Source: Chloroherpetonaceae bacterium (GTDB lineage: Bacteria > Bacteroidota > Chlorobiia > Chlorobiales > Chloroherpetonaceae). Taken from it: a stretch of DNA of 44,888 bases. A program made the translations under genes and the position numbers. The DNA is taken from the NCBI GenBank assembly GCA_028277445.1, contig JANQGG010000026.1:1-44888 (forward strand), written 5' to 3'. This document shows, piece by piece, positions 39,890 to 44,888 of the stretch; the stretch's first letter is position 1; the number at the start of each line of letters is the position of its first letter. Under the pieces are notes generated by a model. That model did not search any database, was not told the origin of the DNA, and was given only the letters and a program-made list of their open reading frames with translations.

Positions 39890-40423
39890 TCATGATGATG
39901 CTGCCTCTTCTACCAACGCAGCAACCAGCTCACGGCAGAAATCCGGAATATCTGCCACTACGCGTCCCCAAATGAGGTGTTCATCCCGAAACGCCGCTTT
40001 ATCCACCCACGTGGCCCCGGCATTGATCAAATCATCTTTAATACCGAGCGATCCGGTTGCTTTTCGCCCGTTTACAATACCGGTTGAGATGGCCACCGAT
40101 CCACCGTGGCAAATAATGCCAATCGGCTTTTTTTGAGCGTCCATCTCTTTAACCAGCCGTTTAACACTCTCATAACGGCGGAGCTTATCCGGCGCCCAAC
40201 CTCCGGGGATAATTAACGCAAATAAATCTTCACACTGAAGCGATTCTATAAGCGTAGTTGGGGTTATAGCTAATCCACTCTTGCCACGTATCGTTTTGAG
40301 TTCTTTTGCAGCGCCAATAACTTCAGCTCCCTCTTCCTGCAATCGCATATATGGAACATAGAATTCCAGGTCTTCAACGCCTTCAGCTAGTAAAATGGCA
40401 ATTTTTTTATCTTTTAATCTCAC
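39890..40423 (-). CDS. DJ-1/PfpI family protein
   Basis: The 177-residue protein has the PfpI-type nucleophile elbow G-I-I-C105-H106-G-G and the conserved acidic residue in A-E-G-V-E-D-L-E (about 14-17). The I-I-P-G-G-W-A-P-D segment completes the active-site loop. Family members include proteases, glyoxalase III-like deglycases, chaperones and amidases; the sequence alone does not choose between them. The adjacent Cys-His pair fits the PfpI/YhbO subgroup linked to stress resistance. It lies downstream of the hydrogenase operon, from which a terminator separates it, so it should have its own promoter. Confidence 0.9.
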   Translation of the reverse strand: MRLKDKKIAILLAEGVEDLEFYVPYMRLQEEGAEVIGAAKELKTIRGKSGLAITPTTLIESLQCEDLFALIIPGGWAPDKLRRYESVKRLVKEMDAQKKPIGIICHGGSVAISTGIVNGRKATGSLGIKDDLINAGATWVDKAAFRDEHLIWGRVVADIPDFCRELVAALVEEAASS

Positions 40424-40473: not shown

Positions 40474-40506
40474 AATGAAAAAGCTGCCCGGTGTTGAGCA
40501 GCTTTT
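40474..40506 (-). terminator. Rho-independent terminator of the hydrogenase operon
   Basis: On the minus strand, AAAAGCTGC (complement of 40498-40506) pairs with GCAGCTTTT (complement of 40479-40487), a nine-pair stem with a ten-base loop and a short T-rich tail. It lies 30 bases beyond the hydA stop. Confidence 0.75.
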
Positions 40507-40535: not shown

Positions 40536-41825
40536 TTAATGCACCGAGCAGGAAATACAGGGGTCATAAGAGCGAACTAACATTTCGCACAGTTTGGTGA
40601 TGTCTTCTTCGCTGCGACCTTTGCTTACTTCAAGCTTTACAAGCTCGGGCAAATCGTGATGAATATTGGCATTGTTTTGCGTGGTAGGAATAATGCAATT
40701 GGCTTTTTGCACCACGCCTGTGTCGTCCAATTCATAGGAGTGATATAAAATGCCTCGCGGCACTTCAACCGCGCCTACGCCTTTGCCGGCTTTGATCTCA
40801 AACGCAGCGCGAACGTCGCTAAAATCATCATCCAACAGCTCGTTAATCATATCGATGGATTCAAGCATCACATGGTACGATTCAACAATCTGCGCCACAT
40901 TGTTCATAAACGGATTGTGATTGACTGCCCGAAGGCCCAGGTCTTCGGCCATTTCACGCGCCTCCGGATACAAATAATGATGATTGTTGTTGAACCTAGC
41001 CAAAGCTCCGGCTGCAAAAGACTCACGGCTTAACTTAGTAAATTTGGTTGTTGTAAAATCAACCACATATTCGTTGGTCATGGCCAGGTAATCGTTTTCG
41101 GGCTTTACCACGCCATCCGTAGAAATTAAATCGCCGCCTATCCACGGATAATGATTTACGCCCCTGAGCGAAACAAACTCTGTTTCCCTGACAAAATCAG
41201 GCATAGGGATGGTTTTAAAGAACTCCGCCGTTGTAACAATTTCGGGCAATGTTTCTTTTATTCGATCTCTAAGGGATTCCAAGCTTTCTCTTTTTGGAAC
41301 GCTAGAAAATCCGCCGATGGCGATGCTAACCGGGTGCGTGGTGCGTCCGGCGATCAAATCGCACATATCATTAGCCAGTCCCTTAAGCTTTACAGCAAGC
41401 GCGGCGACTTCAGGATGAGATTTTACAATTGGCAACACGCTGCCAACATTCATAAAATCAGGCGCGGCAAGGAAAAACACATGTAAAATATGGCTTTGAA
41501 GCGTTTCGCCATGTTTAGCCAGCAGCCTTAATTTTTGCGCAAGTTTAGGAACTTCAACGCCCATTGCACGCTCAATAGCGCGGAAACTGGCAAGCGCATG
41601 ACCAATGGAGCATATCCCGCAAATTCGAGCGGTTAATATTGGCGCAAGATCAATCGAAAGTCCCTTTACCATGGCCTCAAAATAACGCGGCGTTTCAACC
41701 ACTTGCCATTTTGCTTCCACCAACTTTCCGTTTTTCACTTTAACATGAATATCGCCATGACCTTCAACGCGCGTTAAATGATGAACATCTATGTTCAAAT
41801 CGCATTTAGACATCTTTAACCTCAC
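40536..41825 (-). CDS. hydA: NiFe hydrogenase large (catalytic) subunit, group 3b
   Basis: This subunit carries the NiFe active site of a cytoplasmic NAD(P)-linked hydrogenase (sulfhydrogenase type). The four Ni ligands are C69 and C72 in [10 protein letters not shown] and C423 and C426 in D-P-C-I-S-C-S-V-H. The stop codon follows the terminal His429 directly, so the usual C-terminal extension that a maturation endopeptidase removes is absent. The rest is normal in length for the group (429 residues). It is the last gene of hydB-hydG-hydD-hydA, the order known from Pyrococcus sulfhydrogenase I, and overlaps hydD by 20 bases. Hydrogen may be taken up to reduce NADP, or evolved to dispose of reductant. 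Confidence 0.93.
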
Positions 41826-42609
41826 TAAAAGCGTTAAAAAAGCTTAATCTTTCTTTGATATAATCTTTGGAAAATCCTTTTTCTTTAGCAATGTCAAAAA
41901 AAGCTTCAAAATTCGGGGCTTCGAACGGCCCGCGGCAACCCAAACATCCCATCTTGCCCGAGGTGCATACCGCATCGCAGCCGGCTTGCGTGACCGGGCC
42001 CAAGCAAAATTGCCCTAAATCAAACAAACAGGTATTAATATGTTGCTTGCATTCGACGCATACCGGATATTTTGGAAACTTAATTTCTGCTTTGGTAACC
42101 ACATCGACAATAATTCGCTCGACTTCCGCCTTATTGATCGGGCAGCCTGGAATGGCAAGATCAACCTGAACATATTCTTTCACCGGCTTTACTTCAAGCG
42201 TTTCTTTTGGCATTTCGCCATAAACCTCTCGATTCACCTCATCAATCGGATAGCGATTTTTCAGGCTATTAATGCCGCCGAAGCAAGCGCATGTGCCAAT
42301 TGCAACCAATACTTTGGCGCGCTCGCGAATTTTTTTCAAGCGCTCAATTTCGTCGGCTCGCGAAATACTACCCTCAATTAAAGCAATCTCGTAATCATCG
42401 CCTTTATCGGATGAAATTTCCCGAAAATTTACAATCTCCATTAATGAAAGAAAATCCACCAATGTAGTTTCTTTATTGGCGAGTTGCAGCTCGCAACCTT
42501 CGCAACATGTGAAATCAAAAACCCCAACTTTAGGTTTTTGCGGTCCTAATCCAAGGTATTTCATACTAAAAACGCTTAAATCGCTTCCTTTAAATTTAAC
42601 ACCGACCAA
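41806..42609 (-). CDS. hydD: NiFe hydrogenase small subunit, group 3b
   Basis: This subunit holds the electron relay from the NiFe site. The proximal cluster ligands are in C-C-E-G-C-E (35-39), I-G-T-C-A-C-F-G-G (about 103-110) and I-P-G-C-P (about 158). A Cys-rich C-terminal part (C-V-E-C, C-L-F-D, C-L-G-P, C-D-A-V-C, C-L-G-C) supplies the other iron-sulfur clusters. The length of 267 residues is typical. The frame overlaps hydG by 34 bases if the first Met is used; a later Met (codon 16, 42564) would leave no overlap and still precede the first cluster motif, so the start is uncertain. It is cotranscribed with hydB, hydG and hydA. Confidence 0.92.
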
Positions 42610-43490
42610 TAGTCAAACACCGGCCCATCAACGCAAGTAAAGGTTGATCCAACCATACACCGGCAGCATTTACCCATACCGCAATGCATGCGTCTCTCCA
42701 GAGAAACAAACATTTTGTTCATCGGGATGCCGATTTTATCTAAACGATTGCAGACAAACTTAAACATTACCGGCGGGCCGCATACAATGGCATACGTATT
42801 TATGGGATCTATTTCAATTTCATCAAGCAACTCGGTAATCATTCCAACCCGACCGTTCCAATTTTCATCCGGATTTTCAACAATGGAAAGCATATTAATG
42901 TGGTTAACCTTTTCCCATTCGTTGTATTGATAGGTAAATAACATCTGAGAGGGTTCTTTGGCGCCATACAGCACATGCACGTCTTTATACAAATCGCGGT
43001 ACTCGCTGACCCAATACAGCGGCCCTCGAAGCGGCGCAAGCCCTAAACCACCGGCAATCAATAGCACATTGTTGCCTTGCATTTTTTCCATAGGGAAGGA
43101 GTTGCCAAAAGGGCCTCTAAGCCCAACATAGGCGCCAACGCTGGCTTCATGCAACACGTTGGTGGTTCGTCCGGTTTTCCTGATGCAAAGCTCAATGTAC
43201 TCGTGGTTGTTTGTAGAACTGGATAACGAAATAGGAACTTCCCCATAACCCGGAACTTCCAGCATTACAAACTGACCCGGCCGAAATTGAAAAATCTTTC
43301 GTTCAACCCGATCCAGAATTTTGAGATGAAAGAGTTTCTCGTATTCGGTTAAATCAATCACGTTGATAATTTTGCACTTATAAACCTTGTCGGTCTTCAT
43401 CAGAACCTTCTTGCGAGTGTATTGAGGCGGCGTAGCCATAAATGGCTCGAGGTTTACATCCTGTACCGGAAGTTTAAGATCGTTCTTCAT
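42576..43490 (-). CDS. hydG: Hydrogenase gamma subunit, FAD/NAD(P)-binding reductase
   Basis: HydG is a ferredoxin-NADP reductase-like protein that passes electrons between the hydrogenase and NAD(P)H. The FAD-binding half has [12 protein letters not shown] and P-I-S-L-S-S. The nucleotide-binding half has [10 protein letters not shown] and, near the C-terminus, V-C-G-P-P-V-M. The last ~35 residues carry the [2Fe-2S] motif [11 protein letters not shown] with a further Cys in F-T-C-V-D-G-P. The length of 304 residues fits the group. The start codon overlaps the 3' end of hydB by 17 bases. Confidence 0.92.
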
Positions 43491-44523
43491 TATCTAACCT
43501 TAAATCGTTAATAACATCTTTTGGATTTATATCGGCTAAACAAGCCCGTCCGCATCGATTGCATCCCACGCAAATTGGTTCTTTGGCATTTTCTTCAAAA
43601 CCTCTGTAATGATGGTAATATCGATATTTTAAACGGTCTTCTTTTTTTGGTCTGAAATTATGGCCGCCGGCGACTTCGGCAAAATCAAGGATTGTGCACG
43701 AGTAAAGCATCATGTCTTTTGAGGCTTTCTTGAGATTTACGGCGATATTTTCTTCAACCTGATAGCAATAACACGTTGGACAGACCATAGCGCATGTGCC
43801 GCAATTGAGGCATTTATCGCCCCACTTTTTCCAAATGGGAGAATCGAACTCGATATCCAAAAAGCTTGGCAAACTGCCAATTTCAACATTAGTTTTAAAG
43901 CTTTTCTTAATAAACTTTCGCCGCTCGATGTAGCTTTTATCATCCTCATCGGTTGGAACGGTCACTTGAAATTTTTTCAAAAAATCAAATGCCGGGGATG
44001 AATTAATAGCCAGATAGTAACTATCGCCAATATCCGAGCAAAACACATCAAATCCCTCGGTTACCGTATGGTGATTCATTGAACTGCAAAAGCAATCCGG
44101 TAACGGCTCATGATCCAAACCAATAATAAACGTGTTTTTCCGACGGGATATATAATACGGCGAAGGATACGTGCCTTTGTAAAAAATGCGATCTAAAATA
44201 TTTAGCGCATTGATATCGCACGGCCTAAGCCCAACAAGTACCCTTGGATGAACCCGATATTCAATGGTTTGATCCCAATCGTCGTCGGTAAATGTATATT
44301 CGGATAGCTTTTCGCGATAAGGAAGAAAGAAGTTTTTTACAGCCGTGTAGGAGATGGTGTAGTCCAATTCAATCTCATCAGCCGAATGAACTTGCTGAAA
44401 TTTGTAAATCGGGTCATTGTTTCGATCCACATCGGATTGAACCGGCCCTATGGTTACATTTGATTCAATGAGGGACTCCAGAAATTTTCTGAACTCACTT
44501 TTAGAGATAACTCTATAAATCAT
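43474..44523 (-). CDS. hydB: Hydrogenase beta subunit, [4Fe-4S] protein (sulfhydrogenase HydB/AsrA type)
   Basis: HydB relays electrons between the reductase and hydrogenase subunits and is related to the A subunit of anaerobic sulfite reductase. Two [4Fe-4S] motifs lie in the C-terminal third: [12 protein letters not shown] (about 239-250) and [11 protein letters not shown] (about 319-329). An upstream R-P-C-D-I-N-A-L segment (about 100-107) and Cys residues near D-C-F-C-S are typical of the family. The length of 349 residues is normal. It is the first gene of the operon. In Pyrococcus this enzyme can also reduce sulfur to sulfide; whether that matters here is unknown. Confidence 0.92.
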
Positions 44524-44735: not shown

Positions 44736-44888
44736 TTAGTTGCTATTTTCGTTGATCCAATCATCTAAAATCGCTTGTCCTTTTGAAACCGCATCATCCA
44801 TAAGCGATTCCACTTCGGGACTCAGGCCAATATCCATATCCAATTTTTGAGGCGGAATGCCAATCAAGGCAATGCGTTCAGGAAGCTT
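44736..44888 (-). CDS. Hydrogenase maturation protease, C-terminal part (cut by window edge)
   Basis: The minus-strand frame is open at the window edge and ends with a TAA at 44736-44738, giving the last 50 residues of a protein. They read K-L-P-E-R-I-A-L-I-G-I-P-P-Q-K-L, then G-L-S-P-E-V-E-S and a helical tail. The I-G-I-x-P-x-x-L ... G-L-S-P-E-V pattern is the C-terminal signature of the HybD/HycI/HyaD family of nickel-dependent endopeptidases that trim hydrogenase large subunits. It lies 212 bases upstream of hydB on the same strand, the expected genomic position. The catalytic nickel-binding residues are outside the window. Confidence 0.8.
   Translation of the reverse strand, partial: KLPERIALIGIPPQKLDMDIGLSPEVESLMDDAVSKGQAILDDWINENSN

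Follow-up and report, generated by a model that had tools for sequence, protein, structure and literature searches.

How does a [NiFe]-hydrogenase large subunit mature when its gene encodes no C-terminal tail, and which enzyme does a maturation protease gene beside it serve? Both questions are raised by the hyd locus of a Chloroherpetonaceae bacterium, which encodes such a subunit, HydA, near the end of a HybD-type protease gene. In Pyrococcus furiosus, sulfhydrogenase I (SHI) is made with a four-residue tail (-VVRL) that FrxA must remove for activity, and the enzyme shows no activity without FrxA or HycI (PMC2865534), which agrees with the short cleaved tail that a preliminary description of the locus had mentioned for this enzyme. 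In a model proposed for the tailed group 3b enzyme HyhL, pairing between the C-terminal peptide and an N-terminal strand leaves the site accessible to HypA until nickel has been inserted (PMC12134894). The purpose of the tail is still argued because engineered removals gave contradictory results: genetic removal leaves Ralstonia eutropha SH and Escherichia coli Hyd-2 without nickel or the full cofactor, whereas pre-cut R. eutropha MBH matures with lower yield and full specific activity (PMC7294309).

Some hydrogenases are naturally tailless, and canonical machinery is presumed to mature them (PMC7294309; PMC12134894). A 2019 paper names only sensory and Ech enzymes (PMC6769069), a 2020 paper lists groups 2b, 2d, 4c, 4e and 4g (PMC7294309), and a 2025 review lists 2b, 2d, 4c and 4e (PMC12134894). 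Tailless group 3b enzymes are named in none of these three accounts, and in the open-access literature a search on C-terminal extensions of group 3b led to a paper on hydrogenase-4 proteases and to nothing else; a report in a subscription journal is possible.

HydA is encoded without a C-terminal tail

The window, by which we mean the whole stretch of DNA analysed (44,888 nucleotides), is an entire contig (C47) and contains these features:

40479..40506, minus strand: terminator-like hairpin of 11 bp that closes the hyd operon, about 30 nt downstream of the hydA stop
40536..41825, minus strand: hydA, group 3b-type [NiFe]-hydrogenase large (alpha) subunit, 429 aa, no C-terminal extension
40536..40565, minus strand: D-P-C-I-S-C-S-V-H and the stop codon TAA, the spot where a tail would start
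41806..42609, minus strand: hydD, small (delta) subunit
42576..43490, minus strand: hydG, FAD/NAD(P)-binding diaphorase (gamma) subunit
43474..44523, minus strand: hydB, iron-sulfur (beta) subunit
44736..44888, minus strand: 3' end of a HybD-type (HyaD/HybD) maturation protease gene, which leaves the right window edge

The minus-strand frame from 41825 to 40536 agrees with the earlier reading that HydA ends in DPCISCSVH followed by TAA, and its real start is likely Met5. Sulfhydrogenase (group 3b) NCBIfam models match all four hyd genes at scores below their equivalog cut-offs (HydA: ShyA, E=2.6e-76, and HydA, E=3.8e-74; HydD: ShyD, E=1.8e-55; HydG: ShyC, E=6.4e-72; HydB: ShyB, E=1.1e-65); HydD also matches Pfam Oxidored_q6, and HydG matches NCBIfam PRK08345 (E=7.9e-83). 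The hydB-hydG-hydD-hydA set, the placement of HydA on a tree of large subunits and its CxxC ligands identify it, as far as sequence can, as an NAD(P)-linked sulfhydrogenase type of group 3b. P. furiosus SHI (HydBGDA) and the Thermococcus kodakarensis HyhL enzyme share the same four-subunit operon content, and their large subunits can be aligned with HydA over the whole length.

In an end-to-end alignment, the encoded end of HydA falls at residue 424, the mature end of the P. furiosus SHI alpha subunit, so that the encoded end matches a mature end, as in naturally tailless enzymes. The two marks of a protease-processed [NiFe]-hydrogenase, an extension beyond DPCxxCxxH and a cognate PF01750 protease in the genome, are lacking for HydA, unlike P. 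furiosus SHI with its cleaved tail. An AlphaFold model of HydA (mean pLDDT 91.8) has P. furiosus SHI as its top PDB match, and the NiFe-site ligands C69, C72, C423 and C426, which form the N- and C-terminal CxxC motifs, are invariant in HydA homologues. The other hyd genes are the sole strongly conserved neighbourhood of tailless hydA, with hydB at 51, hydD at 50 and hydG at 49 of 63 loci, the remainder of which includes truncated contigs. Beyond the terminator hairpin lies a gene (39890-40423, minus strand) that we named DJ-1/PfpI-like by reading its sequence.

Tail loss marks one subclade of group 3b

The same terminal histidine is followed by a stop in every Chlorobiales genome whose HydA C-terminus could be read, 75 of 75; two further Chlorobiales HydA genes are cut by contig ends and lie outside this count. 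It also ends HydA at 58 loci outside Chlorobiales, in Nitrospirota, Thermodesulfobacteriota, Planctomycetota, Marinimicrobia, Auribacterota, Spirochaetota, Myxococcota and other phyla, and in a homologue with 77% identity (L082). The comparison of C-termini that the preliminary description had proposed thus found every close homologue ending at one residue, and its thought that all close group 3b homologues might end there holds across these 75 genomes and 58 loci.

This distribution bears on whether the TAA is a true end. The preliminary description had considered a sequencing error as its source, but a base error or local mutation is ruled out for practical purposes by the homologues, which end identically in the 75 Chlorobiales genomes and at the 58 loci with three different stop codons (among 93 tailless loci, TGA 47, TAA 28 and TAG 18). 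A hidden tail reached by recoding or readthrough of the stop is scarcely more credible. In-frame TGA is used in some hydrogenases of related genomes, which lends the idea some footing; against it, the codon here is TAA and elsewhere may be TGA, TAA or TAG, the loci inspected hold no conserved in-frame sequence past the hydA stop, and here the terminator hairpin follows after about 30 nt. We rejected readthrough based on the mixed stop codons and the unconserved downstream sequence.

In-frame TGA codons of a different kind were observed in group 1 large subunits. In nine from Nitrospirota (L199-L206 and L255; genomes G130, G114, G133, G148, G108, G132, G136, G131 and G127), both cysteines of the N-terminal RxCGxC ligand motif are replaced by in-frame TGA (RI*GV*), and the C-terminal DPCMACAVH is normal and followed by a 15-aa tail. 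By its sequence, the RI*GV* motif looks like a double-selenocysteine UxxU nickel site; in the part of a 2026 selenoproteome review on which we draw, hydrogenase alpha subunits have a single selenocysteine only (UxxC). In two other group 1 subunits, L217 (G137) and L220 (G116), only the second cysteine of that N-terminal motif is replaced by an in-frame TGA (RFCGV*).

Tailed group 3b enzymes carry tails of 4-19 residues. Conventional 3b enzymes of the same phylum have tails of 7-19 aa in 20 of 20 cases, and the nearest tailed relatives have 8-9 aa in Bipolaricaulota, 8 aa in Thermoplasmata and 5 aa in one deltaproteobacterial MAG. These relatives make up a sister lineage (L059-L069) whose HydA is 46-50% identical to the one studied here and is the nearest tailed form on the tree, yet it has 5-9-aa tails (e.g., HLDVEFVE, YLNVEWKR, MVKVD) and usually a protease gene just downstream.

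We built the tree from 80 rows of large subunits with the tail columns left out, using a quick search with SH-aLRT and no bootstrap. All 43 tailless rows group together with an SH-aLRT support of 99, and their clade sits within the tailed 3b enzymes, which makes the trait a single change on the tree and suggests that the tail was lost once. A split with a support of 100 separates seventy rows, P. furiosus SHI among them, from 3c/3d-like rows with long tails; the branch to P. furiosus is long, and the exact position of that row is unsure. Because conventional enzymes of the same phylum, archaeal enzymes and the sister lineage are all tailed, taillessness appears as a trait of a subclade, neither peculiar to the Chloroherpetonaceae genome nor general to group 3b. 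At twelve positions (e.g., R82, T108, E243, S266), the tailless clade has a fixed residue that tailed 3b enzymes rarely carry; no mechanism could be read from these twelve.

Two incomplete large-subunit sequences were also seen. One of them (L260, 528-938; G129:C232) comprises the C-terminal 136 aa of an additional group 3-like subunit; it too is tailless (AMDPCITCAVH-stop), and its sequence suggests that taillessness may extend past the clade described here. At L259 (2560-4101; G126:C237), the N-terminal half of HydA is in frame with LysR-type regulator-like sequence, which represents either a broken second hydA copy or an assembly chimera.

The protease gene closes a group 1 hydrogenase cluster

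The preliminary description had noted the 3' end of a HybD/HycI-type protease gene just upstream of the operon, and this was borne out for a gene of the HyaD/HybD type at 44736-44888, with its end about 210 bp upstream of hydB. The last 99 nt of the window (44790-44888) lie inside this gene and recur, without a mismatch, at the right end of contig C40, an exact overlap at which the two contigs can be joined. The complete protein that results matches E. coli HybD along its length (1cfz, E=1.5e-27), and its DEGFG, IFDS and SSHQ stretches align over the HybD metal-ligand positions Glu16, Asp62 and His93 (PMC2670836).

On C40, a group 1 cluster runs in the order small subunit, large subunit, cytochrome b, a gene on the opposite strand and, last, the protease. 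Judging by its sequence, the opposite-strand gene between cytochrome b and protease (L005, 9216-9641, minus strand) encodes a PIN-domain (VapC-like) protein. The HyaB-like group 1 large subunit continues past DPCLACASH with IFDMNGNEITTVKIV, a 15-residue extension of the standard kind. Only one PF01750 gene was found in the genome, which is this protease, and the group 1 subunit and HydA are the only PF00374 large subunits. The search for a second hydrogenase that had been recommended therefore found one, with a tail of 15 aa, and the earlier suggestion that the protease serves another hydrogenase gains from both the adjoining group 1 cluster and the co-occurrence pattern described below, in which protease presence tracks tailed subunits. 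Gene order after joining C40 and C47, together with this co-occurrence, supports assignment of the protease to the tailed group 1 large subunit and not to HydA; the same two lines of evidence rule out the candidate reading that the protease matures HydA.

Protease genes follow tailed subunits across genomes

Among 98 Chlorobiales genomes, 79 have a group 1 large subunit together with the protease and the other 19 have neither; no genome is discordant. Five of these genomes have group 1 and the protease without HydA, and three (G056, G089 and G090) have HydA without group 1 and without the protease; G056 is 95% complete and has HypD, and G089 and G090 are less complete. In 73 of the 79 genomes, the protease gene follows the group 1 large subunit on the same strand at a distance of up to 3 kb, and in the nearest relative (G001) it is more than 1 Mb away from hydA.

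A similar association was found in 44 non-Chlorobiales genomes with tailless HydA, where a tailed large subunit is present in all 31 protease-positive genomes versus 1 of 13 protease-negative ones (Fisher p=6e-10, from counts uncorrected for relatedness). HypD is present in all 13 protease-free genomes, 12 of which have no large subunits besides the tailless HydA and tailless types of another sort (sensor-like ...DPCLACAVH-stop, Ech-like DPCISCMER-stop). Protease-free genomes are mostly MAGs, from which genes could be missing; in one of them, G106, a gap is an unlikely cause because the record is 5.57 Mb long and titled 'chromosome'. The single exception left is G127, a fragmented MAG with a tailed group 1 subunit in which no protease was found. 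Two apparent exceptions were explained: in G123, the protease gene lies next to a third large subunit, partly masked, whose tail is 25 aa long, and in G103 the contig with the protease also encodes a group 4-like subunit extended by 38 residues.

The position after hydA gives the same picture. A protease motif lies about 1 kb or less downstream of hydA at 16 of 21 tailed Bacteroidota loci and 8 of 11 tailed sister loci versus 0 of 59 tailless loci, and tail and protease slot are thus missing together in the tailless clade, which, unlike P. furiosus SHI, has no protease gene after hydA. No substitute gene is conserved near tailless hydA beyond hydBGDA among 63 loci, where the commonest extra neighbour is a response regulator (14 of 63). 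A 2009 protease phylogeny placed putative 3b proteases scattered around group 1 proteases (PMC2670836), a scatter that possibly arose from group 1 proteases misassigned to tailless 3b enzymes.

Other tailless large subunits were seen in these genomes. Those of about 500 aa ending in DPCxACxVH or DPCLACAIH (L172, L173, L214, L218, L221, L222, L224, L226 and L258) are probably group 2-type sensors, and G129 and G149 have sensor-like tailless large subunits and no protease at all.

These results bear on two further explanations of the locus. The group 1 protease might act on HydA as a non-cutting chaperone or checkpoint that is still needed despite the missing tail, an idea prompted by the roughly 210 bp between the protease gene and hydB and by a Salmonella maturation protease that can bind a large subunit without the peptide, for which a wider role was suggested (PMC7654741). 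The genomes that pair HydA and HypD with no PF01750 gene, G056 in Chlorobiales and others including G106 in other phyla, argue against this, as does the usual placement of the protease downstream of group 1 and, in G001, far from hydA; we therefore consider a chaperone role improbable. Somewhat more doubtful still is the reading of HydA in this clade as a sensor or degenerate protein and not a working hydrogenase. Group 2b and 2d sensors are tailless (PMC7294309), which fits that reading, but so are the catalytic groups 4c and 4e, and HydA keeps all four Ni/Fe cysteines and many other positions invariant, belongs to a complete and strongly conserved hydBGDA set that supplies iron-sulfur and FAD/NAD(P) subunits, and has a predicted fold that matches catalytic P. 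furiosus SHI.

Maturation of a tailless group 3b enzyme

We consider it very probable that the tail was lost once in a 3b subclade, that HydA is translated at its mature length and matures in a Hyp-dependent manner without a protease, and that the neighbouring protease processes the group 1 subunit. The ordinary Hyp pathway without proteolysis is most likely the route that HydA takes, judging from gene content: the preliminary description had offered maturation without proteolysis as one option, and we infer support for it from the protease tracking tailed subunits and not HydA. In this pathway, NiFe(CN)2CO would be assembled and inserted by the Hyp machinery in the normal way, after which the C-terminal segment, with the last two cysteine ligands and the terminal histidine, would close over the site without an endopeptidase. 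The HybD-type protease would cut the tailed HyaB-like group 1 subunit.

Such a pathway has no endopeptidase step, and it would fall to folding and subunit assembly, in place of cleavage, to register that the site is correctly filled. The tailless clade may replace the role of the tail in another way, or it may tolerate a less strict check. Compensating changes were probably needed, because pre-cut R. eutropha SH and E. coli Hyd-2 stay without nickel or the complete cofactor. The R. eutropha MBH variant whose HoxG lacks residues 604-618 takes up the cofactor without a tail, as HydA presumably does, but it is engineered and gives about 45% lower yield (PMC7294309), whereas the tailless state here was fixed by evolution. 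It seems likely, if less certain than the pathway itself, that a multi-phylum clade of soluble, putatively catalytic 3b enzymes dropped the proteolytic checkpoint by losing the tail and the adjacent protease gene together in one step, and that an intrinsic folding or assembly checkpoint serves in its place.

Large subunits of groups 2b and 2d (sensors), 4c (CooH), 4e (Ech) and 4g are likewise encoded at mature length. Those enzymes are sensory or membrane-bound and energy-converting, whereas HydA is of the soluble NAD(P)-linked 3b type; tailless maturation, already on record for sensors and group 4, is not categorically new, and our comparisons would extend it to a soluble 3b clade of NAD(P)-linked type. 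If so, this multi-phylum clade is a tailless group absent from published lists. For the assignment of proteases, the locus is a caution that proximity alone can mislead when a neighbouring HybD-type gene is given to a 3b enzyme. Tailed and tailless members of one subgroup are adjacent on the tree; among the tailed ones is T. kodakarensis HyhL, and the HyhL-HypA complexes (5yxy/5yy0) provide the apo-large-subunit structures that underlie the current tail model. A single loss would thus provide natural pairs for probing how cofactor filling is checked without a cut, and an NAD(P)H-linked hydrogenase of the tailless 3b type could be produced in a foreign host with one gene less.
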